A stretch of DNA of 64,000 nucleotides, from positions 2,108,001-2,172,000 of the forward strand of contig NZ_JPOG01000001.1 in the NCBI RefSeq assembly GCF_000733765.1, read 5' to 3'. Positions 1 through 37,762 of this stretch are shown here, piece after piece. Under the pieces are notes generated by a model. It was not told the DNA's origin. It did not search any database and saw nothing but the letters and a program-made list of their open reading frames with translations. The position numbers were made by a program, and so were the translations under genes. Position 1 is the first letter of the stretch. The number at the start of each line of letters is the position of its first letter. Origin of the DNA: Algiphilus aromaticivorans DG1253 (lineage in GTDB: Bacteria > Pseudomonadota > Gammaproteobacteria > Nevskiales > Nevskiaceae).

Positions 1-1132
1 AGCGATCCGGGTCGAAGACCTCCGGGTTCGGAAACAGGCTCGACATGCGATGCGTCACCGGTGGCGAGGCCCAGACCATGTCCCCCGAGCGAATCGTGTA
101 GCCCTTGAAATTGAGGTCCTCGTTGACCTGGCGCATCAGGATGATCAGCGGTGGATGCAGGCGCAGCACTTCCTTGAGCACGCAGTCCAGCACATGCATC
201 TCGCGCATGTTCTGGTAGGTGATCTCGCCTTCGGCGCCGAGCAGTTCGTCGACCTCCTCGCGTGCCTGCTTGAGGATGTGTGGATGCTTCAACAGCTCGA
301 GCAGCATCCAGGCGGCCGTACCGGAGCTGGTGTGGTGCCCGGCGAAGATGGCACCGATGAGCATGCCGGTGATCTCGTCCTCGGACAGCGCCGTGCCATC
401 GGCGTAGCGCATGTCGATCAGGCTCTGGAACATGTCGTCGGGCTTGTCCGACTGCTCCGCACGCCGCCGTACGATGTCGCCGACAAGCTGCTTCAAGCGC
501 TTGCGCGCCCGGTCGCGGCGGCGGAAGCGCGGAATCGGCAGATTGGGGAAGTGATAGGCGACCGGGTGCACGCCTTGCTCAAGGTCGTGATAGATCTCCG
601 CGAACTCCTCGTTGAGTTCATAGCGAAACTCGCGGCCGAGCAGGCAGTGACTCGCAGTGTTGATCGTCAGCTGCTTCATGAAGGCGACCAGCTCGATCTC
701 GCCCGCCTTCTCCCAGTTCGCGATGAGCTCCTCGACCTCCTGCACGACCTTGGTCGAATGGTTGCGCATGGCCTCCGCACGCAGCGTCGGCATCAGCATG
801 CGCAGCTGCTCATTCTTGCGCTCGATGGGTGCGTCGAAGATGACGCCCTCGCCGAAGACGGGCGTCATCAGTTTATAGGCAGCGGACTGATCCAGCTGCT
901 CATCCGAGCCGCGGTAGAAGACCTCGCTGGCTTCATCGCCGGTGAGCAGCACCACGCGCTGGCCGAGCAGACGGAAAGAGGCGATCTCGCCGCCTCTGCG
1001 CGCAACGTCCGAGACGAAGTGGAAGGGATTCCGGACGAAGGAGATCAGATGACCCGCCCAGGGCAGGCCACCCGGATGCGAGGGCGGATTGGGCCCGCCG
1101 CCGCGCGGTTGTGTCATCGTGTGGGTTGCCAT
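1..1132 (-). CDS. cyp51: CYP51-type sterol 14alpha-demethylase, C-terminus outside the window
   Basis: Cytochrome P450 removing the 14alpha-methyl group of sterols by three O2/NAD(P)H-dependent oxidations. About 377 residues are visible from the ATG at 1132, which has an AGGAGTG ribosome site 6 nt upstream. The B-C loop reads AAYKLMTPVFGEGVIFD (residues 84-100), helix I reads AGHHTSSGTAAW (about 260-272) and helix K carries ExxR as EVLRLHPPL; all closely match the remembered Mycobacterium CYP51 sequence. The haem-cysteine loop lies beyond position 1, so catalytic competence cannot be confirmed here. It is the last visible gene of the minus-strand operon that also carries ERG25-like and NSDHL-like enzymes, which supports a sterol substrate. 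The position of mycobacterial Phe78 is Leu88 here. Family call is by motif reading, not by search. Confidence 0.88.
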   Translation of the reverse strand, partial: MATHTMTQPRGGGPNPPSHPGGLPWAGHLISFVRNPFHFVSDVARRGGEIASFRLLGQRVVLLTGDEASEVFYRGSDEQLDQSAAYKLMTPVFGEGVIFDAPIERKNEQLRMLMPTLRAEAMRNHSTKVVQEVEELIANWEKAGEIELVAFMKQLTINTASHCLLGREFRYELNEEFAEIYHDLEQGVHPVAYHFPNLPIPRFRRRDRARKRLKQLVGDIVRRRAEQSDKPDDMFQSLIDMRYADGTALSEDEITGMLIGAIFAGHHTSSGTAAWMLLELLKHPHILKQAREEVDELLGAEGEITYQNMREMHVLDCVLKEVLRLHPPLIILMRQVNEDLNFKGYTIRSGDMVWASPPVTHRMSSLFPNPEVFDPDR

Positions 1133-1170
1133 GGCTGCACTCCTGTCTGCTCGCTGTGGGGATTGCCGGA

Positions 1171-2544
1171 CTAGCGGCCCGCCCGGGCGGCCGCCTCCGG
1201 CGCGAACTGCTGGGGCCGCATCGGCTGATTGAGACGCCACCAGCCGTCGCCGGCCTCGTTGACCAGGTAGTCCGCCTCGTAGGCGCCCGAGGTCAGGTCG
1301 TGGAAAAGCGAAACGCCGCGCTGGTAGGTCCCCGATTCCTGCGAGTAGAAGTACAGCACCCAGTTGCTGCGCCAAATATTGCCGCGCGTGTCGTAGTTAT
1401 CCGACATGTGCGCCAGCCAGGTGTCCTCGTGCGCATAGATACGCCGCTTGCCGTAGACGTGGCGGTACTCCTCCTTCAGGTAGCCGTCGATGACCCAGAC
1501 GCGATGCAGCTCCCAGCGCACATGCTCGGGGTTGATGGTCTTGGACTGAATGAGCTCGTCGTAGCTGATATCGGGGTCGTTGACCCGGAAGTTGTGGCGC
1601 GGGATGTACATCTCCTTCTTGCCCACCAGCTTCCAGCTATAGCGCTCCGGCGAGCCGTTGAAGATGTAGTCATCGTCGGAGGTCCGCATGCCGGCCGGCG
1701 GCACGGGATAGTCGTGACCGATCTCGGGGGCCTTGCGCACGCGGCGGGTGCCAGGGTTGTACTGCCAGGCCTGCGTCGAGTCGTTGGCGAAGTTGTTCGG
1801 CTGGTAGCCGACGTTGATCTCGCCGCGGTTGCTCGGTGGCGCCAGCAGTTCGATGAAGAGATAGCCGCCAACCTTGTCGCTGAAATAACCGCGCTCGTCC
1901 GGATCGGGATTGGCGCCCGCGTTCATGGTCGTGAAGTCCCATTTCCCCCACGAAACAGTGCCGTCGCCCTGCACGACCGCGATGTCGTAGATCGCGTGTT
2001 CGGTCCAGGCACGGTGCGGCTGGGTGACATTCCAGATCGCTTCCAGCCCATTCTCAGGAAAGGGAAAGGGGTGCGCCCCGGCCATGCCTTCCAGGCCCAG
2101 GCCGTCGTCGACGATCTTGGCGTTCTCGGCGTTGTAGCGAACCGCGTCGCAGACCCAGTCGTGATAACGGAAATCGCGGTGGCTGGAGTAGACATTCATG
2201 CGGAACTGTTCCGGATACTTCTGGAACATCTGCTTAAGACTTTCGCTCAGGCGCTCCGCGTGCTCCTTGTAGTTGTCCGCGGTAATCGTGACGATCGGCT
2301 CTTCGTCGGCGTAGGGTCCGGGTTCATAGCCGTGCGGCTTGCTCTGGCCGGGCCAGGTCTTGAACCATTTGCCGGTGTATTCGGCGACGCCGCTTTCGGT
2401 GCCCTTCCGGGGCGCCCCCATGCAGTTGAGCTCGTCACCGCCCAGCTTGGCGATCTGCTCCTTGGTCGCATCCGCCCATAGCTGTGCCACGGGCGCGCAG
2501 ATTCCGATCATCAAGCCGATGCACGCGGCGCGTTGCATTGTCAT
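1171..2544 (-). CDS. DUF1329 periplasmic/outer-membrane-associated protein, copy 1
   Basis: Member of DUF1329, often labelled outer membrane lipoprotein-sorting protein; biochemical role unproven. The start at 2544 (MTMQRAACIG) is set by an AGGAGG site 6 nt upstream, giving 457 residues; an in-frame start at 2574 lacks such a site. The N-terminus looks like a signal peptide ending near QLWADA. Family-typical stretches are visible: WQYNPGTRRVRKAPE, HDYPVP, FNGSPERYSWKLVGKKEM and HRVWVIDGYLKEEYRHVYGKR. It lies downstream of a DUF1302 barrel, the usual partner, and upstream of cyp51. Inference: the pair moves a hydrophobic sterol or its ester across the outer membrane. A clear paralogue is at 11681-13069. 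Confidence 0.85.
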   Translation of the reverse strand: MTMQRAACIGLMIGICAPVAQLWADATKEQIAKLGGDELNCMGAPRKGTESGVAEYTGKWFKTWPGQSKPHGYEPGPYADEEPIVTITADNYKEHAERLSESLKQMFQKYPEQFRMNVYSSHRDFRYHDWVCDAVRYNAENAKIVDDGLGLEGMAGAHPFPFPENGLEAIWNVTQPHRAWTEHAIYDIAVVQGDGTVSWGKWDFTTMNAGANPDPDERGYFSDKVGGYLFIELLAPPSNRGEINVGYQPNNFANDSTQAWQYNPGTRRVRKAPEIGHDYPVPPAGMRTSDDDYIFNGSPERYSWKLVGKKEMYIPRHNFRVNDPDISYDELIQSKTINPEHVRWELHRVWVIDGYLKEEYRHVYGKRRIYAHEDTWLAHMSDNYDTRGNIWRSNWVLYFYSQESGTYQRGVSLFHDLTSGAYEADYLVNEAGDGWWRLNQPMRPQQFAPEAAARAGR

Positions 2545-2579
2545 GGTCGCCTCCTCAGGTTGTTCGCCTTGCACCGTCC

Positions 2580-2650
2580 TGCATGGTGCGTGGTAGTAAT
2601 TTCTACTCTATTACTGATAATTCGTATTACTCATTCCGGACTAGTGCCGG
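2580..2650 (-). promoter_or_regulatory. AT-rich gap upstream of DUF1329 copy 1, possible internal promoter/operator
   Basis: The 121-nt gap between the DUF1302 and DUF1329 genes holds an AT-rich stretch that stands out in this GC-rich DNA. It contains GTAAT-N9-ATTAC arms (2596-2614) and the 9-mer GTAGTAATT (2593-2601), which recurs in inverted form in the tetR/GMC gap at 9708-9716. It may be a second promoter with a site for the TetR protein. Inferred from sequence only. Confidence 0.3.
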
Positions 2651-2665
2651 GCTGCCGCTCGGGCA

Positions 2666-4624
2666 TCAGAAGAAGTCGTACTCCATGCTCAACCCGATGG
2701 TGTCGCGGTCGGCCAGCGGCCGATCCAGGAAGTGCGGCGCACCACCGAGGAAGCCGCTGTACTGGATGCCGATCGTCAGGCGCTGCTGGCGCGTGAACTC
2801 GAAGCCGATACCGACACGGGTGTCGTTCTCATCGAAGAGCGAGCCAAAACCACCGTTGAGCGGCGAACGGCCTTCGAGGGCCTGTTGATAGGAGATCGGC
2901 ACGGTCAGGTCCCAGCCCGGGAACAGCGAGTAGTGCTGGAGAATGGCGAGCACCGATACCGCCCAGGCCTGCCGATCGAACTGCAGCTCCTTGAAGTACT
3001 CACCTTCCGTATCCCCTTCCTGACTGGGCTGCGCCTGCACATCGGTCGCCTCGACCCAGCCAAGCTCACCGACCAGCGATAGGCTGTCGAAGAGCCACGG
3101 CGGACGGCCGCTGTAGATGGCGTTGACCAGCACTTGATTCGTGTTGGCCCGCGTCGGCGTCGGAATCGGGCCGTTGACGCCGTTGGGCACATCCACGTTG
3201 ACGTCGACCCCACGGCGATGGATGACCTCCGCCGCAACGTTCACGCCGGCGAAGAGGGTCGACAGGCTCATCGCGTAGAGATCGACGTTGTCGAAATAGC
3301 GAATGTTGTAGCTCGCCGGCACGTTGATGCCCAGATCGGCCGTCGTTATCGCCGGTATCAGCGTGGCGCCGGCGATTTCCTGCTCGGGGATGATGGCCAG
3401 CTCGCCGAAGTTGGTGACCACCGCCGGCGTCTTCTGGTGATAGCGCAGGTAGTAGGCTCCGAACTCGGTCACCGGTGTCAGCTGATACTTCAGTCCCGCA
3501 CCGTATTCCGGGTCATCCGACTCGATGTAACCGGCGAAGGTCGGGTTCAGCCCCTCCGGCGCGTCAAGGATGGAGTTCGCCCCGCCCAGCGGCAGACGGA
3601 TCGGCGGCAGGCCGTCGAGCGGCAGCGACAACAACAGGTTCTCCAGTGCCTCCACCGGCAGCTGGTTGTCGAAGAACGCCTCGTCGATGGTCATGACGAG
3701 GCCGGCGATCTGGTCGGGATCGGTGATGTCGAGCTCGGCTAGGTTCTCCGTGTTCAATGGGTTCTTGAGGCCGTAGATCATCTCGGCCCCGGGACCGACG
3801 ACATCGCTGGGCGAATAGAAGCTGCCGATGGGGTCGATCTCGAAGGGCTTGAAGTCGACGATGTATTGACCGAGCAGCGTGAGGCGCCGAGAGAGCGTGA
3901 AGCGGAAGGAGGCCTGGTTGACCGGCAGCAGGATGCTCTTGACGTCGATACCCGGAACCGTCGCGCGCGTCGCATCGGCCGGCGCCTGCGCCTGTGCGAT
4001 ACCGCTGAAGAAGAGACTCTCGCCCCAGGCGGCGATGTGCCGACCCACCCGAACGTTGAGCGCCATCGTGTCGCCGAAGTAGAAATTGCCGTAGACATAG
4101 GCATCGAGCAGGCGCGCGCGACGGTGGCTGCGACTTTCGGCAGCGTCCGTGAAGGTATTGAAGGGCTCCTGCGAGGTATTGATGCTATCCGGCGAATCGT
4201 GATCGTTGCGACCGGCATAGGCGTGGTCGTAAAAGGCGTCGCCGCGGATCAGAAAGCCGTAGTCTCGCCAGGAGAAATCGAGATCCCCGAGCAGCGACGC
4301 TCGGTTGTTGACCATCGCCCACTGGTCGAAATTGCGATTACCGTCGTCGTAGTTGTGCGACTCGGGATACTTCAGAAACTCGGCAACGGGCACCTCCGGG
4401 CTACCCGGCGTATCGATGATGCGCGGGTCCGGATTCTCGAGCCGCCATGCGGCCGCGTAGCTGGCCTTGAGCGAGTACGCGAGGTCGATACCGTAGAAGT
4501 CGGCGCGCCCGGCCTCAGCCGCCGGAAGCCAGCACGCCAACAAGCCGAGCAAACAGCCGGTAACACGCGATGCATGTCGGTGGCGCACCACGTCGCGCCA
4601 CCTCCCCCCAGAATCCTTCTGCAT
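2666..4624 (-). CDS. DUF1302 outer-membrane beta-barrel protein, copy 1
   Basis: Predicted outer-membrane channel of 652 residues, longer than its paralogue at 13080-14684 (534 residues). A GGAGGGG site precedes the ATG. The N-terminus has a basic region and hydrophobic stretch (GCLLGLLACWLPAAEA) fitting a signal peptide, and the C-terminus ends in Phe (SMEYDFF) as in many barrel proteins. Motifs shared with the paralogue include DDGNRNF, VNNRA, AWGESLFF and the QxPADAT segment. DUF1302 and DUF1329 genes are usually neighbours and recur in clusters for hydrophobic substrates such as steroids and alkanes. The place between the NSDHL-like gene and cyp51 suggests sterol import. A structural or purely adhesive role cannot be excluded. 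Confidence 0.85.
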   Translation of the reverse strand: MQKDSGGRWRDVVRHRHASRVTGCLLGLLACWLPAAEAGRADFYGIDLAYSLKASYAAAWRLENPDPRIIDTPGSPEVPVAEFLKYPESHNYDDGNRNFDQWAMVNNRASLLGDLDFSWRDYGFLIRGDAFYDHAYAGRNDHDSPDSINTSQEPFNTFTDAAESRSHRRARLLDAYVYGNFYFGDTMALNVRVGRHIAAWGESLFFSGIAQAQAPADATRATVPGIDVKSILLPVNQASFRFTLSRRLTLLGQYIVDFKPFEIDPIGSFYSPSDVVGPGAEMIYGLKNPLNTENLAELDITDPDQIAGLVMTIDEAFFDNQLPVEALENLLLSLPLDGLPPIRLPLGGANSILDAPEGLNPTFAGYIESDDPEYGAGLKYQLTPVTEFGAYYLRYHQKTPAVVTNFGELAIIPEQEIAGATLIPAITTADLGINVPASYNIRYFDNVDLYAMSLSTLFAGVNVAAEVIHRRGVDVNVDVPNGVNGPIPTPTRANTNQVLVNAIYSGRPPWLFDSLSLVGELGWVEATDVQAQPSQEGDTEGEYFKELQFDRQAWAVSVLAILQHYSLFPGWDLTVPISYQQALEGRSPLNGGFGSLFDENDTRVGIGFEFTRQQRLTIGIQYSGFLGGAPHFLDRPLADRDTIGLSMEYDFF

Positions 4625-4678
4625 AGTCCCCTCCGATGTGCACGTCCACTCTCTTTATTACCGCGCGGGTGGATCGGC

Positions 4679-5686
4679 TCAGGCTGCTGCCCGCAACTGC
4701 TCGACCGTCAGGCGAATCCCCTCTTCAAGGGAAACCGCCGGCTGCCATTCCAGATCGCGCCGAGCCTTGGCGATGCTGAAGTAGTGATGCGTGACCATGT
4801 AGCGGACAGAGAAGCGCGTCATGCCGTTCTCCGCGTTCAGCGTGCCGCCGCGCAGCGTGTCGATGCCCTCCGCCACGGCGGCCGCCGAGTAGGCGATCCA
4901 GTACGGCACCTTTCCCTTGATCGGCGGGTAGCCCATGGCGACCACCAGCTTCTCGATGAAGTCGAAGAAGGCCATGGGCTCGCCGTTGGTTACGAAGTAG
5001 GCCTGACCGCACACCGGTGAGCCGTCCTCCAGCCGCGCCTCAGCGGCAACGACGGCATCGACGAGATTGCTGATGTAGGTGAAGTCGGAAAGCTTGTCGC
5101 GATTGCCCACCGCCTTCGTCAGCTTGCCGGCGGCGGCCTTGTCGAGAATGGCCGGCACGAATCGATTGTCACCGGCACCGAAGACCACGTGCGGGCGGAT
5201 CGCGCAGGTATGTGCACCGCCCTGCCCGCTTTGCGCCAGCACGACCTTCTCGGCGGCGATCTTGCTGTCGGCGTAGGGCGCCTGCGAAATGCGCGAATAG
5301 GGCAGGCTTTCGTCGCCGTATTCGATGTCCTGGCCCTCGTAGACCGCGCTGGCGGAGCTCATGTAGACAAGGCGCGGTATGCCGTGCGCGCGACAGGCCG
5401 CCAGCACATTCTCGGTGCCGGTCAGGTTCACCGCCCACACATCCTCCTCGCGGCTGTGCTTGGTGTGTACCAGCGAGGCGTTGTGAATGACGCTGTCGAC
5501 CCCCGCGAAAGCCGCCTTGACGGCATCGGCGTCGCGGATATCGAGCTTGACGAAGCGGACATCGCCGCGAAAGGGGCGATCGAGCATGTCCGCGCAGATC
5601 ACCCTGAAGCCTTCGTCGGCAAAGCGATCGACCAGCGCGCGCCCGACGAAGCCCTGCCCCCCCGTTATAAGAATCGTTCTGCTCAT
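4679..5686 (-). CDS. NSDHL/ERG26-like 3beta-hydroxysteroid dehydrogenase (C-4 decarboxylase type)
   Basis: NAD(P)-dependent extended SDR of 335 residues. The Rossmann motif is TGGQGFVG (residues 8-15) and the catalytic pair is Y138/K142 in YADSK. The second half resembles eukaryotic NSDHL/ERG26: a GAGDNRFVP segment, SDFTYISNLVDA, FVTNGEPMAFFDFIE and VPYWIAYS. In eukaryotes that enzyme oxidises the 3beta-OH of 4alpha-carboxysterols, which then lose CO2. It lies 15 nt downstream of the ERG25-like gene, so the two probably act on the same carbon. A plain 3beta-hydroxysteroid dehydrogenase/isomerase acting on the sterol 3-OH is the main alternative. Family call is strong; the exact substrate is inferred from neighbours. 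Confidence 0.78.
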   Translation of the reverse strand: MSRTILITGGQGFVGRALVDRFADEGFRVICADMLDRPFRGDVRFVKLDIRDADAVKAAFAGVDSVIHNASLVHTKHSREEDVWAVNLTGTENVLAACRAHGIPRLVYMSSASAVYEGQDIEYGDESLPYSRISQAPYADSKIAAEKVVLAQSGQGGAHTCAIRPHVVFGAGDNRFVPAILDKAAAGKLTKAVGNRDKLSDFTYISNLVDAVVAAEARLEDGSPVCGQAYFVTNGEPMAFFDFIEKLVVAMGYPPIKGKVPYWIAYSAAAVAEGIDTLRGGTLNAENGMTRFSVRYMVTHHYFSIAKARRDLEWQPAVSLEEGIRLTVEQLRAAA

Positions 5687-5701
5687 GCTGCGCTCCCGGA
5701 T

Positions 5702-6376
5702 CTACTTGAAGGTGCCGAAGGCCTGATCCCAGAACGGAAAGATCGAGGCGTAGTTGTATTTCAGCTTGGCGTGATGGATGTCGTGCTTCTCGGCCCAGAA
5801 GTTGAAGAGCCGGAAGGCCGGATGCGGCAGCACGAGATTGCCGTGCACGATGATGTTCACGGTCGAATAGACGAACCAGGTCGTCAGGAACGAGACCGTG
5901 CTGATCGGCCCCAGGATCACGATCGCCAGAACCAGCAGCCCCAGGCCAGCGATGTTCTCGGCCGGATGCAGGAAGATGCTCTCCGGCGCCGTCGGAAACT
6001 TCACGTAGTGGTGGATGCGGTGCACATGCTTGAGCACCCGCGGTTGATGCATGAAGCGGTGCAGGAAGTAGTACATGAAGTCGTAGAGCAACAGCACTGC
6101 GAGCACCTCGCCGATGAAATGCGCCGTGCCCGGCCAGCCCGCATACATCGCCCAATCGCCCAGGTAGAAGAAGAAGGCGGCGAGAACCGACAGCGACAGC
6201 ACATTGTTGAGCTGCGTGTTCACCATCAGACGCGTCTTCGGAATCTGATAGGTGCTGGGCGTGCGGATGCGGTACTTCGAGAAGCGCTCCGACTTGGCCG
6301 CCCAGGACAGCGTCTGCATGAGCACGCCGTCGAAGGCCAGGATGGCCGCGAATGCGATGAAGAAAGCGGTATCCAT
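5702..6376 (-). CDS. Sterol desaturase/fatty acid hydroxylase superfamily, C-4 methylsterol oxidase-like
   Basis: Membrane di-iron oxygenase of 224 residues. All three histidine clusters are present: HRFMH (H106, H110), HVHRIHH (H119, H122, H123) and HDIHH (H198, H201, H202). Hydrophobic segments lie near residues 5-25, 58-80, 88-104 and 143-180. The run from DFMYYFLHRFMH to the HPAEN segment is arranged as in MSMO1/ERG25, which oxidises the C-4 methyl group of sterols. It is shorter than the roughly 300-residue eukaryotic enzyme. It starts 5 nt after the aldehyde dehydrogenase and ends 15 nt before the NSDHL-like gene. C-5 desaturase or another hydroxylase of the superfamily is possible; the CYP51 and NSDHL context favours C-4 methyl oxidation. 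Confidence 0.72.
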   Translation of the reverse strand: MDTAFFIAFAAILAFDGVLMQTLSWAAKSERFSKYRIRTPSTYQIPKTRLMVNTQLNNVLSLSVLAAFFFYLGDWAMYAGWPGTAHFIGEVLAVLLLYDFMYYFLHRFMHQPRVLKHVHRIHHYVKFPTAPESIFLHPAENIAGLGLLVLAIVILGPISTVSFLTTWFVYSTVNIIVHGNLVLPHPAFRLFNFWAEKHDIHHAKLKYNYASIFPFWDQAFGTFK

Positions 6377-6381
6377 GACTC

Positions 6382-8001
6382 CTACCTCGTGGATTGTGTG
6401 GCGCCGGAAGCGCGGTTTCCGCGCATCAGGCTGAGAAGACTCTTGAAACGCTGGCGCCAACCGGTCGCGAAGAGCAGCCGGATGCCGTTGCGCGCCTTGG
6501 CGTAGTCGCCCGCCCCGACCGGATACAGCCGCTGCGGAACGGCGACGGGAAAACGATCGCTGAGCACGGCCTTGGGATTGGTGTAGGCGCGCAAGCCGTC
6601 GCGCCCGTTCATGCGCCCGAAGCCGGAATACTTGACGCCGCCGAAGGGCAGATCCTGATTCAGGTAGCACAGCCCGAAGTCGTTGATGCAGGTCGCGCCC
6701 GCCTCGAGTTCGGCGGCGATGCGCTCGGCGCGCTTACGGTCGCGCGAAAAGACCGAGGACTGCAGACCGAAGTCAATGGCATTGGCGATGCGCACGGCCT
6801 CGGCGTCGTCGGCGGCGCGCATGATCAGCATCACCGGCCCGAAGACCTCCTCGCGGGCGATGCGCATCTCGGGGGTGACATCGACCAGCACCGTCGGCGG
6901 ATAGAAGCTTCCGGAGGCGCCTTCGGGAAGCCGACCGCCGACCAGCGCGCGGGCACCGGACGCCAGCGCATCGCGCACCAGCTCGTCGACGATGCGCACC
7001 TGCTGCGGCGTCGTCATGGCGCCGACATCCAGCGTGCCGGGTTGCTCCGGCACACCCTGGCGCATGTCGCCGGCGATGCGGGTCACCTCTTCGACGAAGC
7101 GGTCAAAAATGCCCGCCTGCACGATGAGGCGCTCGGAGGCGATGCAGTTCTGGCCGAGATTGATGAAGCAGCCGCTCAACGCCGAGTGCACGGCCTGCTC
7201 CAGATGCGCATCATCGCAGATGATCATCGGATCCTTGCCGCCCAGCTCCATGACCACCGGCGTCAGATGCTCGGCACTGCCCTCGATGATCTTGCGGCCG
7301 TTGCCCACCGAGCCGATGAAGAGAATCTTCTGCACCCGGCTGCGCACCAGCGCCGCACCGGTCTCGCCATAACCGTTGATGATCTGCACGGTCTCGGCCG
7401 GGAAACCCTCGGCGACCAGCGCCTCCTCGAAGACCCGCCGGAAGCGCTGCGTCGACCAGGCCACTGCCTCGGAGGCCTTGAGGACCACCGCGTTGCCCGC
7501 CATCAAGGGCGCAACCAGCGAGCCGAAGATGTTCTGGAAAGGATAGTTCCAGGGCACGATGCAGGCCACCACGCCCAGCGGACGATATTCGATGCGCCCC
7601 TTCTTGTGCTTGAGCAGCCCGGACGGCACCGACTCGCTGCGCAGATGCTTCTCGCCGTAGCGGATGATCCAGCGAATCTTGTTGCAGACCGGCATTACCT
7701 CGCCCAGCAACGCGTTCTCCCAGGTCTTGCCGGAATCCGCGACGACAGCGGCGCAGAGCTCGTCGACGTCGTCGAGGATGCTCTGCAGCATGCGGCGCAG
7801 CACCGCCCGGCGCTGGCGGAAGCTGCTCTGCGCCCACTGCTTCTGCGCCGCGCGTGCGCGCTCGACCGCCTCCTGCACCTCCGCCGGGGTGGCGGCGGGC
7901 AGCGTGCCCAGCGTCTCGCCGGTGGCCGGATTGCGACAGTCGATCTCCGTGACCTGGCGGAGCGGCGTCTCGGGCGCTCTTGCCTGTGCTTCGACACTCA
8001 C
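6382..8001 (-). CDS. Aldehyde dehydrogenase
   Basis: NAD(P)-dependent aldehyde dehydrogenase of 539 residues, oxidising an aldehyde to an acid. E252 of MELGGKDP and the nucleophile C286 of GQNCIASE are present, as are VPWNYPFQN and the C-terminal PFGGVKYSGFGR. It is longer than the common 480-500 residues, with a basic C-terminal tail (KARNGIRLLFATGWRQRFK) that may bind the membrane. Its start overlaps the GMC oxidoreductase stop by 4 nt, so the two are probably translationally coupled and may carry out sequential alcohol-to-aldehyde-to-acid steps. Possible substrates are a C-4 formyl sterol or a side-chain aldehyde; the sequence does not decide. Confidence 0.88.
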   Translation of the reverse strand: MSVEAQARAPETPLRQVTEIDCRNPATGETLGTLPAATPAEVQEAVERARAAQKQWAQSSFRQRRAVLRRMLQSILDDVDELCAAVVADSGKTWENALLGEVMPVCNKIRWIIRYGEKHLRSESVPSGLLKHKKGRIEYRPLGVVACIVPWNYPFQNIFGSLVAPLMAGNAVVLKASEAVAWSTQRFRRVFEEALVAEGFPAETVQIINGYGETGAALVRSRVQKILFIGSVGNGRKIIEGSAEHLTPVVMELGGKDPMIICDDAHLEQAVHSALSGCFINLGQNCIASERLIVQAGIFDRFVEEVTRIAGDMRQGVPEQPGTLDVGAMTTPQQVRIVDELVRDALASGARALVGGRLPEGASGSFYPPTVLVDVTPEMRIAREEVFGPVMLIMRAADDAEAVRIANAIDFGLQSSVFSRDRKRAERIAAELEAGATCINDFGLCYLNQDLPFGGVKYSGFGRMNGRDGLRAYTNPKAVLSDRFPVAVPQRLYPVGAGDYAKARNGIRLLFATGWRQRFKSLLSLMRGNRASGATQSTR

Positions 8002-9680
8002 GTGCGTGCTCCCTCAAGAATGAATTCCGCAGCGCGATAACCGACCATCATGCTCGGCGCGTTCAGCGCCGAGACCGGAATTTCCGGAAAGACGGAAGCG
8101 TCGGCCACGCGCACATTGGCCAGGCCCTTCACGCGTAGCTGTGCGTCGACCGGGCTGGCGTCGTCCGTGCCCATGCGGCAGCTGCCGCAGTAGTGAAAGG
8201 TCGTCATCGTGGCCTGGTGGACCCAGCGCCAGCGCTTGCGCGCGTCCTCCGCCACGGCCGCCTTCGACAGCGGCCGGGCGCCGGCAGAAGCCAGCGGCGG
8301 CTGCTCGGCGATGCCCTGTGCCCTGGCGATGGCCGCGTCCATGGCTTCGCGGTCGGCAGCGGTCGCGTAATAGGCCTGGTCGACCAGCGGGCTGTCCTCC
8401 GGCTGCGCCGACGCCAGCCGCACGCGGCCGCGCGAACTCGGCTTGCCCAGAATGACGACGATGCCGAAGATCCTCGATACGAAGCGCTTCAGCGGCGGCA
8501 GCAGGAAGGCACCGCGCACCAGCGCACGCAGCAGGCTGCGCAGCGGCCGCAGCCGGTAGAGCCGGCCGGGCAGCGCCAGGATCGGCAGCATGCGCAGCAT
8601 CGATTCCTTCAGCGAAGCCGGTGCCGCGTAGCAGACAAAGCAGGTATCGGGCGGCGCCGGCTCTGCCCCCCGCTCGCGCGCGGCGCCGAAGGCGTAGATT
8701 TGCGGATAGCGGAAATCGACGGGCACGCGCCCGCGGTAGAAGACGCAGACGTTGGGGTGATCCTGCAGGTTCTCGCCAACACCCGGCGCATCCAGTACCG
8801 GCGCGATGTCGTGCTGCTGCAGATGCACCGCTGGGCCGACGCCGGAGAGCATGAGCAGCTTCGGACTCTCCAGCGCGCCGGCGCAGAGGACGACTTCCTC
8901 CGCGACGTCCACGCGCTGCAGTTCCCCGTTGCGCCGGAACTCGACAGCCACGGCGCGACGCTGTGCATCGAAGATCAGCCGCTGCACCACGGCGCCGCTT
9001 AGAATCTCCAACTGCGCATGCTGCTGACCGTGCAGCCAGACCCGATAGGAACTGCGTCGCTCGTCGCCCTCGTAGTTCATCGCGTTGCAGCCGACGACCT
9101 CGCCGAGGTCGCCGTCGTTCATCCCATCCTTGCGCGCGAAGCCGGCGCCGCGGGAGGCGGCGATGAAGCGCTCGGCGAAGGGCGTGGGCGCACGCGGCCG
9201 GATGCGCAGCCGCGCCTCGATGGCCTCGAAAGCCGGCACGACGTCCTCCCACTGCCAGCCCTGGGGCCAGGCCGCGAAGTCGCGCCGATCGCCTCGCGTA
9301 TAGACCATACCGTTGACGCCACCGCTGCCGCCCAGCACACGGCCGCTGCCCATGTAGAGCGAGCGCCCGCCGCAGCCCTCCTGCGGCACGCTCATGCGAT
9401 GCCACATCAGAGCGTCGTTGGTGAAGCTGTGCTTGAAGCCGTCGGCCGACAGTGTTTCCGGATGCTGCTCGGCGGCGTCGCCGGCCTCGATCAGCAGCAC
9501 GCGCCCGGCTCCGGCTTCGGCCAGCTGACCGGCGAGCACACAGCCCGCCGAGCCGCCGCCGACGATGACGTAGTCGTAGACCGTATCGCCCGCAGCAGCC
9601 TGCGGTGGCAGATCCCGCTGCTCACCGGCTGTCGCACTGCTGTCTCCTCGCGGCTGAGCCACAACGCGCATCGGGCGCAT
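7998..9680 (-). CDS. GMC-family FAD-dependent alcohol oxidoreductase
   Basis: Glucose-methanol-choline oxidoreductase of 560 residues. The ADP-binding motif YDYVIVGGGSAGCVLAG lies near residues 35-51, GSGRVLGGSGGVNGMVYTRG gives the GMC signature, and the C-terminal end carries HYCGSCRMG and SALNAPSMMVGYRAAEFI. It is the first gene of the minus-strand operon and diverges from tetR across 129 nt. A second in-frame ATG at 9671 is possible; neither start has a strong ribosome site. Members oxidise primary or secondary alcohols, and the overlap with the aldehyde dehydrogenase suggests a primary alcohol here. A cholesterol-oxidase-like reaction on the sterol 3-OH is the alternative. Confidence 0.85.
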   Translation of the reverse strand: MRPMRVVAQPRGDSSATAGEQRDLPPQAAAGDTVYDYVIVGGGSAGCVLAGQLAEAGAGRVLLIEAGDAAEQHPETLSADGFKHSFTNDALMWHRMSVPQEGCGGRSLYMGSGRVLGGSGGVNGMVYTRGDRRDFAAWPQGWQWEDVVPAFEAIEARLRIRPRAPTPFAERFIAASRGAGFARKDGMNDGDLGEVVGCNAMNYEGDERRSSYRVWLHGQQHAQLEILSGAVVQRLIFDAQRRAVAVEFRRNGELQRVDVAEEVVLCAGALESPKLLMLSGVGPAVHLQQHDIAPVLDAPGVGENLQDHPNVCVFYRGRVPVDFRYPQIYAFGAARERGAEPAPPDTCFVCYAAPASLKESMLRMLPILALPGRLYRLRPLRSLLRALVRGAFLLPPLKRFVSRIFGIVVILGKPSSRGRVRLASAQPEDSPLVDQAYYATAADREAMDAAIARAQGIAEQPPLASAGARPLSKAAVAEDARKRWRWVHQATMTTFHYCGSCRMGTDDASPVDAQLRVKGLANVRVADASVFPEIPVSALNAPSMMVGYRAAEFILEGART

Positions 9681-9809
9681 AATTTATCTTTCATTTCATG
9701 TAACGACAATTACTACATTAGAATGCCGGCGTACCCGTGTCAACACGCCCGGGCCACAGGCTCGGACGGCTTCGAATCCCCCCCGCCAACCGATGGATAC
9801 AATGACGTC
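9681..9809. promoter_or_regulatory. Divergent promoter region between the GMC/cyp51 operon and tetR
   Basis: This gap should hold promoters for both directions and the TetR operator. The AT-rich part (9680-9722) has ATGTA (9698-9702) and TACAT (9714-9718) as outer arms, with GTAA-N6-TTAC (9700-9713) inside. AATTACTAC (9708-9716) is the inverse of the 9-mer upstream of DUF1329 copy 1. The operator assignment is an inference. Confidence 0.4.
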
Positions 9810-10592
9810 ATGAGCCAGCCCACCAAGACCCCGAAAGGCGGCGAATCGGGCACTTCCAAGCCGAGGAAGGGCCGGCGCCCCCAGGCCAGCGATCTGCGTG
9901 CGGCCAAGGACGAGCTCTATCGCCGCCACATCCTGGCGGTGGCCGAGAGCGTCTTCGCCGAGCAGGGCTTCGCCAGCACCAAGATGCAGGACATCGCGCG
10001 CTCGGCCGGCATCTCGCTCGGCACGCTCTACCAGTCCTATGCCAGCAAGCGCGAGCTGCACCGGAGCGTGCTGATTGCTCGCGATACGGAGATGTTCGAG
10101 GCCGTGATGCAGAAGGGGCAGGCCGTGCTCCAGCAGCCCGAGTCCATCGAGCGGCTGCTATGGCTGCAGCGCACGCATCTGGAATTCATGCTGGAGCATC
10201 CCGACTATCTGCGGATGCAGCTGCACGAAGGCTACGTCTGGTATCACGACGCAGCCTGGCCGAGTTCCGAGGAGCAGCAGCTGTGGATTCGCGGCCTCGA
10301 CGTCATCGAACAGGTCTTCGACTGGGGGCGCCGCCAGGAACTCTTCGTCCCGGGGACTGCGCGTGACGATGCGCGCCTGCTCATGGTCATGCAGCAGACG
10401 CGGCTGGCGAACTGGATGATGGACGAGATGCGGGAATCCCACGAAACCGTGATCGGCCGCGTACTGGCCGATTTCGTCCGGCAGTTCTGCCGCCCGGATG
10501 TCGCCGCCGGGATGCTCTCGGCAGACGGGGCAGCGCTGAGCCCAGCCGCGCAGGAGCGGCTCGGGGCCATCGATCAGAAACTGGGCGCTTGA
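9810..10592 (+). CDS. TetR/AcrR-family transcriptional regulator
   Basis: Regulator of 260 residues. After a basic, disordered N-terminus (KTPKGGESGTSKPRKGRR) comes a TetR helix-turn-helix: HILAVAESVFAEQGFASTK, then MQDIARSAGISLGTLYQSYASK, at residues 38-78. The C-terminal ligand domain is not diagnostic. The start at 9810 is chosen because it puts the helix-turn-helix at the usual distance from the N-terminus; in-frame upstream codons would run into the divergent promoter. It diverges from the GMC-to-cyp51 operon and is followed 91 nt later by an SDR. Most likely it represses both directions and is released by a sterol or an acyl-CoA intermediate, as TetR regulators of steroid catabolism do. 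It is not obviously KstR or KstR2. Confidence 0.85.
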   Translation: MSQPTKTPKGGESGTSKPRKGRRPQASDLRAAKDELYRRHILAVAESVFAEQGFASTKMQDIARSAGISLGTLYQSYASKRELHRSVLIARDTEMFEAVMQKGQAVLQQPESIERLLWLQRTHLEFMLEHPDYLRMQLHEGYVWYHDAAWPSSEEQQLWIRGLDVIEQVFDWGRRQELFVPGTARDDARLLMVMQQTRLANWMMDEMRESHETVIGRVLADFVRQFCRPDVAAGMLSADGAALSPAAQERLGAIDQKLGA

Positions 10593-13069: not shown

Positions 13070-13079
13070 TGCAGGCATC

Positions 13080-31248: not shown

Positions 31249-32022
31249 CTAGTTGTTGTCGGCACGCGCATTGACGTCCGCGTCGCGCTTTTCCACAAAG
31301 GCCCGGCGCGTCTCGGCCGAGTCCGGTTCCATGTAGGCCTGCAGCGTGAAGCCCTGCTCCCAGCGGTACTTGTCCTCGAGGTTGCCGTCCTCGATGCCGT
31401 TGAGGGATTCCTTGGCCAATCGCAGCATGGCCGCGCTCTTGCCGGCAATGCCGCCGGCGATGGCCATGGCCTTGTCGCGCAGCTGCTCGGGGCCGACCAC
31501 AGCCTCGATGGCGCCCAGGCGGTAGGCCTCGGCCGCATCGATGGGCTCACCGGTGAAGTACATCGCGCGCACCTTCTGCACCGGGAACAGCCGCTGCAGA
31601 TGCGCGCCGCCGCCCATGGCGCCACGATCGACCTCGGGCACGCCGAAGCTGGCGTTGTCGGCGGCGACGAGAATGTCCGCCGCACCGGCGATACCGATGC
31701 CCCCACCGAGCACGAAACCGTGCAGTGCCACGATGACCGGCAGCGGATTGCGATGAATCGCCTCGAAGGTCCGGTAGTTGCCGGCGTTGACGTCGACGAT
31801 GCGCTCGGGATGCGCATTCAGCTCCTTGATATCGACACCGGCACAGAAACCCTTGCCCTCGGCGCGGATGACGATGACCCGCAGATCCGAACGCGTACCC
31901 AGCTCATGTATGGCGTCGGCAAGCGCGTGCCAGCCGTGGCTGTCCAGCGCGTTGACCGGCGGCTTGTCGATGACCAGCTCGCCGATGCCCTCATGACATT
32001 CAATGCGGAAAGGGGTGCTCAT
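31249..32022 (-). CDS. echA20: EchA20-like crotonase, C/D-ring CoA ester hydrolase
   Basis: Crotonase-fold protein of 257 residues. GFCAGVDIKELNAHPERIVD, NPLPVIVALHGFVLGGGIG and FGVPEVDRGAMGGGAHLQRLFP fit EchA20, which opens the last steroid ring of HIEC-CoA by hydrolysis in Mycobacterium. It overlaps ipdC by 4 nt. IpdC, EchA20 and IpdAB act consecutively in that pathway and all are in this block, which supports the assignment over a general enoyl-CoA hydratase. Confidence 0.85.
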   Translation of the reverse strand: MSTPFRIECHEGIGELVIDKPPVNALDSHGWHALADAIHELGTRSDLRVIVIRAEGKGFCAGVDIKELNAHPERIVDVNAGNYRTFEAIHRNPLPVIVALHGFVLGGGIGIAGAADILVAADNASFGVPEVDRGAMGGGAHLQRLFPVQKVRAMYFTGEPIDAAEAYRLGAIEAVVGPEQLRDKAMAIAGGIAGKSAAMLRLAKESLNGIEDGNLEDKYRWEQGFTLQAYMEPDSAETRRAFVEKRDADVNARADNN

Positions 32023-35630: not shown

Positions 35631-36512
35631 TCAAAACGCCGGCAGCGATAGGCTGCGGATGTGCTCGGCGCCGCCGACGGCCTTCAGGTAGGCGTCCTCG
35701 CCGGGGGCGATGTAGTGGTTGAAGTAGCCCGCCCAGCCATCTTCTTCAGTGGCCGAGGCGTTGTAGGCCTTGAGGTGCGCCATGTCCCAGCCGTAGTCGG
35801 GCCCGAAGTAGGTGGGGTGCGCGCCGCAGGGGGCGTGCACGACACCCTTGACCAGATAGCGCTCGAAGCGGTTGTCCTGGACCGTCTCGGCGTCGAGCTG
35901 CAGCTGATCCTTGATCTGCTCGCAGCTGACGTAGGCGGCATCAGCAGCGCGCGCAAAGAGGTGATCGAAGAAGCGGTCATGGCCGCGCTCCAGCGTGTTG
36001 CCCAGGCGATCGGCGACATTGACGTGCAGCAGGGCCGCATCCAGCTTCAGCGCCGGCATCGCCACATAGACCTCGCCGTCGTCGTAGGGCGAGGCCACCG
36101 TGCGCAGTTCCGGATTGCGCGACATGACGTCGGTCGCCAGACCCACCCGCGTCGGCAGGAAGGACATGCGCATGCCGGCGGCACGCAGGCCCCACTCGAA
36201 CATGCCCTCGTCCAGCTCCATGATCGACAGCTCGCCGCTCTGGCGCGCCTTGCGAAAGTAGGGCTCCAGAGGGATCGCGTCCATGGTGACGAAGGGATAG
36301 ACCAGCCGCTTGACCTTGCCGGCCGCGCACAGCATGCCGACCTCCGGGCCGCCGTAGGCGACCACCGTGAGGTCGGTGACATCCGAGCGCAGCAGCTCGC
36401 GTACCAGCGCCATCGGCTTGCGCCGCGGCCCCCAGCCACCGATGCCCAGCGTCATGCCGCTTTCCAGACGCCCGATGGCCTCGGCCGCCGTCATGCTCTT
36501 GTCCAGCGCCAT
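35631..36512 (-). CDS. ipdA: IpdA, COCHEA-CoA hydrolase alpha subunit
   Basis: CoA-transferase-like subunit of 293 residues. MTLGIGGWGPRRKPMALVRE carries the glycine-rich CoA site; VAYGGPEVGMLCAAGKVKRL, IMELDEGMFEWGLRAAGMRM and FLPTRVGLATDVM fit IpdA. With IpdB it opens the last ring-derived cyclohexenone, releasing a linear CoA ester for beta-oxidation. It lies 9 nt after the HsaC/TesB gene. The order hsaC-ipdA-ipdB makes this the promoter-proximal end of the C/D-ring block. Confidence 0.88.
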   Translation of the reverse strand: MALDKSMTAAEAIGRLESGMTLGIGGWGPRRKPMALVRELLRSDVTDLTVVAYGGPEVGMLCAAGKVKRLVYPFVTMDAIPLEPYFRKARQSGELSIMELDEGMFEWGLRAAGMRMSFLPTRVGLATDVMSRNPELRTVASPYDDGEVYVAMPALKLDAALLHVNVADRLGNTLERGHDRFFDHLFARAADAAYVSCEQIKDQLQLDAETVQDNRFERYLVKGVVHAPCGAHPTYFGPDYGWDMAHLKAYNASATEEDGWAGYFNHYIAPGEDAYLKAVGGAEHIRSLSLPAF

Positions 36513-36521
36513 GTTCGCCCC

Positions 36522-37409
36522 TTACTGGAAGCCGACCGAGAAATCGTGACCCCAGATGCTCACGCTCTCGGTCTTGGTGGTCTCGTGCTTGTCGGGATCG
36601 ACGATCTCGCCGCCCCAGCCGAACTCCAATGCGAAGTTCGAAGGGGTCATCATGTAGAAGGAGGTCATCTTGTCGTTGGTGTGCTGCCCCAGCGTCGCCA
36701 TCAGCTTGACGTCGAAGGCCTGCATGCGGTCGTGCGCCTTGCCGACCTCGGTCATTGAATCGACCTCCACCATGATGTGCACGCAGCCGGCCGGATTCGG
36801 CATCTCGGCCAGCGCCAGGCTGTGATGCCGGCCGTTGATGCAGTGCAGGAAGTGGATGCGCATGCCCGGCGAGCCGTCCGGCGGCTCGAAATTGAATTCG
36901 TCGGAGGCGCCGAAGCCGAGCTTGTCCACGAAAAAGGCGCGCGTCTCGTCGAAGGGAAGCGCAGGCAATACCGTGTGCCCCATGCCGTACTTGCCGGTCT
37001 TGAAGCCCGTCACACCGATGGGCGAGACGAAGGCCGCATTGCCGCCGCTATAGCCATGCGTAAGCTCGTGGCGGTTGCCCGCGGGGTCGAAGAAGGTCGC
37101 GATATCGGTCACCCGACGCGCCTTCTTGAATGCCTCATCGCCGCGCTCCACGCTTTGTCCGGCCGCCTCGATGGCGGCGATGGTCTCGTCGAAAGCCGCC
37201 GCATCGGCCACCTCCCAGCCCGAGGCGAAATACCGGTCCTCGGCGCCGGATATCACGCTGATGCGAAAGTCGCGCTCGTCCATCTTCAACGCGAGCCCGG
37301 TGCCGTCATCCAGCGCCTGCATCCCGAGCACCTGCTCGGCGTAGTCGCGCCAACGCTGGATGTCGGTGGACTCGGCCACGACATAGGCCAGCTGGGAAAT
37401 CTGCGGCAT
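36522..37409 (-). CDS. hsaC: HsaC/TesB-like extradiol dioxygenase
   Basis: Type I extradiol dioxygenase of 295 residues with two vicinal-oxygen-chelate domains; it opens the catecholic A ring of 3,4-DHSA. MPQISQLAYVVAESTDIQRW and YAEQVLGM start domain 1; domain 2 has MGHTVLPALPFDE (first His ligand), NGRHHSLALAEMPN (second His) and NFALEFGWGGEIVD (Glu ligand). The start at 37409 gives the normal family length; longer in-frame extensions run into strong hairpins and are rejected. It is the first gene of the ipd block and diverges from the cyclase-family gene. The hydroxylase and hydrolase partners HsaA, HsaB and HsaD are not in the window. Confidence 0.87.
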   Translation of the reverse strand: MPQISQLAYVVAESTDIQRWRDYAEQVLGMQALDDGTGLALKMDERDFRISVISGAEDRYFASGWEVADAAAFDETIAAIEAAGQSVERGDEAFKKARRVTDIATFFDPAGNRHELTHGYSGGNAAFVSPIGVTGFKTGKYGMGHTVLPALPFDETRAFFVDKLGFGASDEFNFEPPDGSPGMRIHFLHCINGRHHSLALAEMPNPAGCVHIMVEVDSMTEVGKAHDRMQAFDVKLMATLGQHTNDKMTSFYMMTPSNFALEFGWGGEIVDPDKHETTKTESVSIWGHDFSVGFQ

Positions 37410-37762
37410 GGCGTTGTCTGCCCCCTGAATGTGCGCCGCCATTATCGAAACCACCGCCCCCCAAGGCTTCATCCGTTGGGGTGAGTCGCGACCGACTTGC
37501 CGGGGGCAAGTCGCAGCGCGACTCACCGCCGCGGCCATGGATGGCCGCGGCGGAACGAGCGCGAAGCCGATTCTGGCCCCTCCTCGAAGCGAGACTCCGC
37601 ACCAGACGACTTCAACACCATGGGCAGCAGTCTCACGGAAGAGGCCTCCATCGCAGACTTCCACCGCAGAGACCTGACGATACGCCCGACAGGGATCGGG
37701 CCAGTGGCAAACACGGACCACAACTGCTCCAATAACGCCATAACGCACAAGGAGGAGAGACG
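37410..37762. other. 353-nt divergent intergenic region, no gene
   Basis: Separates hsaC (minus) from the cyclase-family gene (plus). It contains two strong tandem stem-loops (37480-37527 and 37526-37553) and must hold promoters for both directions. I see no clear -10/-35 pair. The last part has a strong AAGGAGGAG ribosome site for the plus-strand gene. Apparent ORFs crossing the region are shadows or extensions without ribosome sites. Confidence 0.7.
37480..37553. repeat. Two tandem high-stability stem-loops
   Basis: Stem-loop 1: GGTGAGTCGCG (37480-37490) pairs with CGCGACTCACC (37517-37527), and inside it CGACTTGCC (37493-37501) pairs with GGCAAGTCG (37505-37513) around GGG. Stem-loop 2: CCGCCGCGGCCAT (37526-37538) pairs with ATGGCCGCGGCGG (37541-37553) around GG. 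All arms are perfect. No T-run follows on either side, so these are not ordinary terminators. Confidence 0.75.

Follow-up and report, generated by a model that had tools for sequence, protein, structure and literature searches.

A candidate methylsterol demethylation cluster for sterol catabolism in Algiphilus aromaticivorans DG1253

Genes at the locus and their families

The window analysed here, a stretch of 64,000 nucleotides of the Algiphilus aromaticivorans DG1253 genome (C1:2108001-2172000; genome of 3.81 Mb, 98.93% complete), begins with a gene cluster for a CYP51-ferredoxin fusion (CYP51fx), a candidate sterol C-4 demethylation module and putative uptake proteins. We consider it very likely that the cluster encodes the opening part of a pathway by which methylated sterols are catabolised, in which 4- and 14-methylsterols would be demethylated. 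Seven operon genes, from that of the GMC-family oxidoreductase to CYP51fx, were all found on the minus strand where the sequence-only reading had placed them, with successive gaps of -4, 5, 15, 54, 121, and 38 bp, and the products preceding CYP51fx matched Pfam GMC_oxred, Aldedh, FA_hydroxylase, 3Beta_HSD, DUF1302, and DUF1329. The claim of seven closely spaced, co-directional genes was thus borne out. The identification of the seventh as CYP51 also stood, but the window edge cuts the gene and its fusion to a ferredoxin had been missed; likewise, the cluster is real but larger than seven genes, since it reaches ~8.5 kb beyond the window start. On the same strand, CYP51fx is followed (gaps in brackets) by genes for two proteins, SDR2 (13 bp) and an NTF2-like protein (0 bp), a CPI-like membrane protein (8 bp), and SDR3 (49 bp), and then for a double CoA-transferase III (CaiB twice; 157 bp), a ChsH2-type OB-fold DUF35 protein carrying ChsH2_C (61 bp), and an Ltp2-like thiolase (92 bp). 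A FadD-like ligase and a KshA-like Rieske protein are encoded farther out.

The best PDB matches of CYP51fx were CYP51s. The first of them, 6mcw (634.7 bits), which we take to be the CYP51 of Methylococcus capsulatus, was aligned over residues 16-562 of 564, the ferredoxin included. The heme motif FGGGKHKCSG and the I-helix motif FAGHHTSSGT were present, and Fer4_15, Fer4_13, and Fer4_19 matched inside residues 500-563. Closest to characterised CYP51s and having the heme Cys, AGHHTSS, and a fused single-cluster ferredoxin, the P450 is assigned to the CYP51fx type by its sequence. Its B-C loop, YKLMTP, has Leu as in the animal and fungal enzymes.

According to extracts of PMC13277303, an NTF2-family enzyme (8,14-Bsr) reduces the CYP51 product and is often co-localised with a fused or linked CYP51-ferredoxin; its homologues occur in methanotrophs, Mycobacteriales, alpha- and gamma-proteobacteria, and myxobacteria, and the pocket residues Y37, Y43, Y78, Y80, D133, and D136 were examined. 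The NTF2-like protein of the cluster was 58-67% identical to 11 homologues taken from the 68 loci with Bsr (six from methanotroph loci, with the M. capsulatus protein itself outside the set), including 59-60% to three Methylobacter rows. Its Y49, Y55, Y90, Y92, D145, and D148 were invariant in all 12 alignment rows, and in all six methanotroph rows these columns are positions 37, 43, 78, 80, 133, and 136, namely the published numbers. Homology and the six pocket residues indicate that the protein is an 8,14-Bsr orthologue. The extracts describe neither a C-4 module nor a CPI alongside 8,14-Bsr; they do cite a biochemical precedent, the formation of a C19 8(14)-ene steroid from lanosterol by a Mycobacterium, and the reference list names microbial transformation of cycloartenol.

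The putative C-4 module comprises the genes for the GMC oxidoreductase, aldehyde dehydrogenase (ALDH), C4ox, and SDR1. C4ox shows three His clusters, as expected for the FA_hydroxylase superfamily (HRFMH at 106, HRIHH at 119, HDIHH at 198), and scored 80 bits against a provisional MSMO1 reference sequence and 36 against a provisional SC5D one; a profile search of the PDB gave nothing at E<=1. SDR1 carries the 3beta-HSD family motifs GGQGFVG (GxxGFxG, NAD) and YADSK (YxxxK), and its best PDB match was NSDHL (E 2.3e-36; next match 2.7e-19), presumably the human enzyme. Members of the superfamilies of MSMO1/ERG25 and NSDHL/ERG26, which form the eukaryotic C-4 demethylation complex with ERG27, adjoin each other here. 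Unlike the eukaryotic C-4 complex, these proteins are bacterial, stand in a catabolic context, and are accompanied by GMC and ALDH, and a counterpart of ERG27 was not identified. Known bacterial C-4 demethylation is performed by the Rieske oxygenase SdmA with SdmB/SdmC (extracts of PMC10202945 and PMC6385002), the same task by another route, and the four proteins of the region that matched these models scored 54-139 bits at equivalog cut-offs of 600 (SdmB: SDR3 139.2, SDR2 102.7, SDR1 54.1; SdmA: KshA-like protein 66.3). The C-4 demethylases of sterol-making bacteria are called non-homologous to the eukaryotic ones in part of PMC10202945. ERG25-27 homologues were reported in a Nannocystis by genome mining (extracts of PMC10152446), so that ERG25-like genes in bacteria were already known of.

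The CPI-like protein (263 amino acids) aligned with 15 homologues at 49-73% identity, and the profile, for which five of the 19 CPI-like loci were left out (two of them fragments), matched a provisional reference sequence of Arabidopsis CPI1 over its full length with 183.7 bits (best shuffle, 7.1). It is a membrane protein like plant CPI1 but of bacterial origin; in part of PMC8172173, CPI is tied to organisms with the cycloartenol pathway. Structures modelled with AlphaFold (pLDDT 84.2 for the CPI-like protein and 85.0 for C4ox) gave no fold match at E<=0.001, which neither supports nor refutes the assignments, and a plasmid collection held no match to the CPI-like protein. The protein could instead be another sterol isomerase or reductase, as its failure to match any family, PDB entry, or fold and the provisional reference would allow; the cluster would then serve lanosterol-type substrates only, which is compatible with the catabolic reading. 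The full-length profile match argues otherwise, as do homologues of 237-297 bits in five genomes from the phylum of a Polyangia metagenome-assembled genome (MAG), all of which have cyclases of family PF13243, and we regard this alternative as doubtful, with perhaps one chance in a few.

Table 1 Features located in the window.
Feature	Position	Strand	Evidence	Proposed role or remark
GMC-family FAD oxidoreductase, first operon gene	7998..9680	-	Pfam GMC_oxred_N/C	neighbour of ALDH, C4ox, and SDR1 also in relatives
ALDH	6382..8001	-	Pfam Aldedh; conserved neighbour	candidate for oxidising the 4-formyl group to 4-carboxyl
C4ox, ERG25-like di-iron membrane oxidase	5702..6376	-	Pfam FA_hydroxylase (PF04116)	candidate sterol C-4 methyl oxidase
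SDR1, NSDHL-like 3beta-HSD-family dehydrogenase	4679..5686	-	Pfam 3Beta_HSD	candidate 4-carboxysterol 3-dehydrogenase/decarboxylase
DUF1302 protein	2666..4624	-	Pfam DUF1302, 8.1e-129	probable envelope uptake component
DUF1329 protein	1171..2544	-	Pfam DUF1329, 8.8e-103; ATG taken at 2544	probable envelope uptake component
CYP51fx, 5' part	1..1132	-	whole gene C1:2107441-2109132, 563 amino acids	predicted sterol 14alpha-demethylase
TetR-family regulator	9795..10592	+	Pfam TetR_N; start approximate	divergent from operon
Operator-like site	9700..9719	-	degenerate GTAATTGCAATTAC copy, three mismatches to palindrome	in GMC-TetR gap
Enoyl-CoA hydratase	31249..32022	-	NF005925 (PRK07938), 368.7 bits, cut-off 260	
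IpdA-like CoA-transferase-fold subunit	35631..36512	-	PDB 6co6 'Probable CoA-transferase alpha subunit', E 7.6e-80	
HsaC-like extradiol dioxygenase	36522..37748	-	PDB 2zi8/2zyq (named BphC), E 1.5e-55	domain from residue 117 of the open reading frame (ORF)

Cyclases, steroid genes, and cluster genes across genomes

PF13243 (SQHop_cyclase) had no match in the whole genome of the strain. The sequence-only reading had preferred catabolism to biosynthesis for want of a cyclase in the window, a preference that now holds genome-wide. A PF08491 match of 25.7 bits was obtained, and this family also matches in E. coli. Genes for KshA-, HsaC-, IpdA-, and Ltp2-like proteins are no farther than ~45 kb from the cluster; thiolase, acyl-CoA dehydrogenase, and enoyl-CoA hydratase genes are found with the IpdA- and HsaC-like genes at ~21-43 kb of the window. 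The PDB entries matched are presumably the steroid enzymes themselves: we take 6co6 to be IpdA, a subunit of the steroid ring C/D hydrolase, 2zi8/2zyq to be HsaC, and 6ok1, named Lipid-transfer protein and the best match of the Ltp2-like thiolase (E 1.5e-129), to be Ltp2. In NCBIfam, the HsaC-like dioxygenase scored 276 bits with BphC and then 249 with HsaC, both below the cut-offs of 366 and 450.

A scan of GTDB species yielded 116 relatives, the best 80 of which were kept as named loci with CYP51fx (designated, with further loci, by L numbers, and genomes by G numbers). C4ox, SDR1, ALDH, and GMC genes were also present in nine of the 80 (GMC cut by the contig end in L038), and their order, GMC-ALDH-C4ox-SDR1, was conserved in these nine and in L160, L161, L162, and L165; a cut SDR1, that of L040, was left out of the SDR1 alignment. 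This sharing, with the order kept, argues that the cluster is not due to chance. The CPI-like gene occurred in 19 of the 80 loci, twice as a fragment, and the loci of Zavarzinia, Stenotrophobium, Ketobacter, HdN1, and other proteobacteria mostly share it together with Bsr. No locus among L044-L102 had C4ox, GMC, or ALDH; the CPI-like gene was seen in just one of them, L060 (Proteobacteria Glo_12). C-4 module genes with a TetR gene were also seen in L163, L164, and L165 (G370, G415, and G433), whose genomes have neither CYP51fx nor a high-scoring CPI-like gene, which suggests independent use of the module on 4-methyl substrates.

The distribution of cyclases and steroid genes was then compared in 39 CYP51fx genomes, consisting of the strain itself, all 21 genomes of L023-L043, and 17 of the 59 loci L044-L102, L060 not among them. 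These last are called methanotroph-type here, 15 being so named and those of L044 and L063 being classed by CYP51 and cyclases only. PF13243 cyclases were found in 19 of the 39 (the 17 methanotroph-type genomes and those of L031, the Polyangia MAG, and L037), and an IpdA orthologue (52-100% identity) in 17, matches of 32% in three methanotroph-type genomes not being counted. As a result, 19 genomes had the cyclase only, 17 had IpdA only, three (the MAGs G450, G453, and G465) had neither, and none had both. Of the 20 cyclase-free genomes, 16 had C4ox at 328 bits or more, and of the 19 with a cyclase, none did; divided by type, the counts were 16 of 22 non-methanotroph-type and none of 17 methanotroph-type genomes. 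Weaker matches occurred in G458 (182 bits), G469 (124), G468 (118), G463 (104), and one methanotroph-type genome (51.8), and none in G454 and G464. Fisher tests gave p values of 2.6e-8 for cyclase against IpdA and 1.5e-7 for cyclase against C4ox, both uncorrected for shared ancestry.

In a CYP51 tree made by a quick method (48 rows; 37 of the 80 named loci and 11 others), 23 degrader rows formed one clade (SH-aLRT 100) together with L031 and L037; 20 of these rows came from cyclase-free genomes, and the genomes of L020-L022 were outside the cyclase test. The Methylococcus group was sister to this clade, and the other methanotroph rows fell outside. L037 is a 3.8-kb contig of a MAG named Methylothermaceae with a degrader-type CYP51fx-Bsr pair and a CPI-like fragment, possibly the result of misbinning or transfer.

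These data bear on the possibility that sterols are made, or trimmed, for the cell's own membranes, as in methanotrophs. CYP51fx and 8,14-Bsr closely resemble the pair used for biosynthesis in Methylococcaceae (extracts of PMC13277303): the fusion aligned almost end to end, the same six Bsr residues are present, the CYP51 tree has the Methylococcus clade as sister of the degraders, and in most methanotroph loci, as in the present one, CYP51fx and Bsr are close together (M. capsulatus, L077, had no Bsr match within 10 kb of CYP51). Moreover, remodelling of imported sterols would require no cyclase. Unlike in Methylococcaceae, however, CYP51fx belongs to a separate degrader clade, SDR2 lies between CYP51fx and Bsr, and ERG25-like, NSDHL-like, CPI-like, and steroid-degradation genes stand alongside. 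PF13243 is absent from the strain and 19 other CYP51fx genomes, and the cluster runs into CoA-transferase, Ltp2-like, and KshA-like genes. Biosynthesis was rejected because the genome of the strain has no PF13243 cyclase and cyclase and IpdA exclude each other in the 39 genomes, and we hold biosynthesis or remodelling, taken together, to be improbable.

In the order to which the strain belongs (85 genomes), CYP51fx was found in six genomes; the CPI-like gene at 430 bits or more was present in the same six and in none of the other 79, and C4ox in all six and three of the 79. A second, more distant CPI-like subfamily (190-221 bits) was seen in 11 of the 85 genomes, none with CYP51fx. KshA-like Rieske genes were nearby in four of five stretches with this subfamily (L154-L158) and DUF1302/DUF1329 genes in the fifth; one of the Rieske proteins was 70% identical to the KshA-like protein of the strain, and three scored 48-67 bits with SdmA (cut-off 600).

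In a second phylum, that of the Polyangia MAG, four CYP51s formed a separate lineage in the CYP51 tree, and the CYP51 ORFs of L194 and L196 (468 and 458 amino acids) are too short for a fused ferredoxin. In seven loci of this phylum (L192-L198), CYP51 and the CPI-like gene were accompanied by HsaC-like (six loci), GMC-like (six), KshA-like Rieske (four), Bsr (four), and ALDH genes (three); in L194, the Rieske protein matched KshA_C and the dioxygenase BphC_D1. PF13243 had no match in five of the seven genomes, a weak one in G861 (2.4e-4), and a clear one in G499. This gene content suggests an independent CYP51/CPI-like cluster with, in part, Bsr and KshA-, HsaC-, and GMC-like genes. In the phylum as a whole, the CPI-like protein occurred in 38 of 377 genomes; PF13243 matched at E<1e-20 in 21 of them versus 4 of 20 CPI-free genomes (the first 20 listed). 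The CPI-like and cyclase genes of G708 are ~13 kb apart on one contig, with unrelated scanned proteins between them, and no sterol enzymes were among the proteins scanned around the CPI-like genes of L216 and L217; for a CPI gene beside a cyclase gene in this phylum, these results are weak support.

A palindrome before both demethylation modules

A motif was learned from nine gaps flanking TetR genes, one site being forced per gap. Its centre was GTAATTGCAATTAC, with a score of 253 as compared with 139-158 for 12 mononucleotide shuffles; the margin is somewhat flattered because the search of the shuffles was less full than that of the real set, using fewer seeds and rounds. A TetR gene stood beside C-4 module genes in L024, L025, L029, and L159-L165. 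In G369, the C-4 module (L162) and the CYP51 module (L018 and L028) are on separate contigs, and one palindrome precedes both. L028, which was outside the training set, has a perfect palindrome, AGTAATTGCAATTACT, at a distance of ~63 bp ahead of the DUF1329 ORF preceding CYP51fx (score 27.0; next separate site in L028, 12.9). Also outside training, L025 and L159 have strong sites beside TetR, and L026 has a site of 21 bits at position 671, just past the end of a minus-strand ORF stretch of 191 amino acids (681-1256). These arrangements suggest that the divergent TetR probably controls the cluster genes through the palindrome.

Proposed pathway and its weighing

The earlier proposal of demethylation of imported methylsterols before ordinary steroid degradation is supported by the lack of a cyclase, the steroid genes within ~45 kb, and the mutual exclusion of cyclase and IpdA in the 39 genomes. 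It gains most from features beyond the window that the sequence-only reading had missed, namely the ferredoxin fusion, the 8,14-Bsr orthologue, and the CPI-like protein. The computations show which genes and families are present, their conserved order and residues, the exclusion of cyclases, and the shared palindrome. In the scheme that we propose, whose substrates, order of steps, uptake, regulation, and roles for GMC, ALDH, SDR2, and SDR3 we infer, the DUF1302 and DUF1329 proteins probably serve the uptake of a 4,4,14-trimethyl or 4-methyl sterol of the lanosterol or cycloartenol type. CYP51fx would take off the 14alpha-methyl group with electrons from its own fused ferredoxin, and the 8,14-Bsr orthologue would reduce and isomerise the resulting 8,14-diene to the 8(14)-ene. 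In sterols of the cycloartenol type, the 9beta,19-cyclopropane ring would probably be opened by the CPI-like isomerase. According to part of PMC12667688, 4,4-dimethyl compounds are poor substrates of plant CPIs, which bears on the step order, and an amoebal CYP51 acts on cycloeucalenol with the ring intact (extracts of PMC10968281). At C-4, C4ox, probably with GMC and ALDH, would convert the methyl group to an acid; SDR1 would oxidise the 3-hydroxyl group, triggering decarboxylation as in NSDHL, and C-3 may be restored by SDR2 or SDR3 so that a second methyl group can be removed. Ordinary steroid degradation of the nucleus would follow, through Ltp2/DUF35-type side-chain cleavage, KshA, HsaC, and IpdAB.

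Several points weigh against this catabolic scheme. At C-4, the top NCBIfam model of SDR1 was OleD (252 bits, below its cut-off of 580). The substrate is a 3-hydroxy/3-keto carboxylic acid for OleD as well as for NSDHL. No reductase partner of C4ox turned up, though no search for one was made. The CPI-like protein had no Pfam, NCBIfam, PDB sequence (best E 0.17), or fold match, and its identity as CPI is a strong lead only, because the CPI1 reference is provisional. Across genomes, Spongiibacter pelagi (G454) had no C4ox match and three cyclase-free genomes only 104-124 bits, while the genome of L031, which has a cyclase, also had a C4ox match of 182 bits; L031 and L037 fall within the degrader CYP51 clade despite the cyclases of their genomes. 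In the second phylum, Bsr was present in only four of the seven loci and C4ox in none, and among the seven genomes with the cluster, G499 has a cyclase (E 1.5e-55). In the window itself, the palindrome is weak, with its three mismatches, and sites of at least 19 bits (up to 25.8) also occur in ten methanotroph loci (115 sequences, 1.82 Mb), so that the palindrome score alone is not specific; G+C was 39-54% in the low-scoring methanotroph loci with sites and 54-68% in L024, L028, and L029. Lastly, the 8(14)-ene is no obvious substrate for later ring chemistry, and a further isomerase may be needed, because the Mycobacterium product from lanosterol was a C19 8(14)-ene steroid (extracts of PMC13277303).

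An alternative substrate class, other terpenoids with a 4,4-dimethyl group (pentacyclic triterpenoids, diterpenoids, or hopanoids) catabolised with CYP51 acting on a non-sterol, would suit the C-4 modules without CYP51fx in G370, G415, and G433 and the 4,4-dimethyl-3-hydroxy ring A common among triterpenoids, but it is very improbable, given that the Bsr residues are those of the sterol enzyme, that the steroid C/D-ring gene IpdA co-occurs, and that the partners of the module are CYP51 and the CPI-like protein.

Beyond the single locus, we find it reasonably probable, if less so than methylsterol catabolism in this strain, that alpha- and gammaproteobacteria have a catabolic, plant-type post-cyclisation sterol pathway (CPI, C-14 and 8(14) steps, and C-4 demethylation of the eukaryote type) controlled as a single TetR regulon, and that the second phylum independently holds its CYP51-CPI part. 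If this is true, the CPI of the pathway would be the first in bacteria and its C-4 demethylase the first catabolic one of the ERG25/NSDHL type, and sterol makers and sterol eaters would have exchanged CYP51fx and Bsr as a pair. The mycobacterial CYP51/ferredoxin/8,14-Bsr loci, compared by their description in extracts of PMC13277303, likewise combine CYP51 and 8,14-Bsr in a steroid degrader, and the present cluster adds the C-4 module and the CPI-like gene. In the searches of open-access PMC literature (subscription papers being outside this scope), no listed title or abstract dealt with a CPI of bacteria or with catabolic C-4 demethylases of the ERG25/NSDHL type, and neither is described in the extracts of the papers cited here or in those of PMC6678751, PMC11279926, and PMC10714780.

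Methylated sterols such as lanosterol, cycloartenol, and 4-methylsterols are intermediates of eukaryotic sterol synthesis in plants, algae, and others, and 4-methylsterols serve as geological biomarkers (extracts of PMC6385002). Genes for their catabolic methyl removal in bacteria had no description in the open-access literature searched, and the locus offers a testable gene list. It could explain the occurrence of CYP51 and 8,14-Bsr in bacteria making no sterol and could yield biocatalysts for steroids from methylsterol-rich feedstock.

Three further features of the window were noted. A second DUF1329/DUF1302 pair lies at 11681-14684 on the strand of the operon, past TetR and an SDR gene. Genes for an MMPL-family protein and then a BNR/YCF48-type protein (18138-21502) adjoin the steroid genes and possibly encode more uptake components. 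Inside the steroid region, an ORF of 474 amino acids (38899-40323, minus strand) without a Pfam or NCBIfam match is a putative gene.

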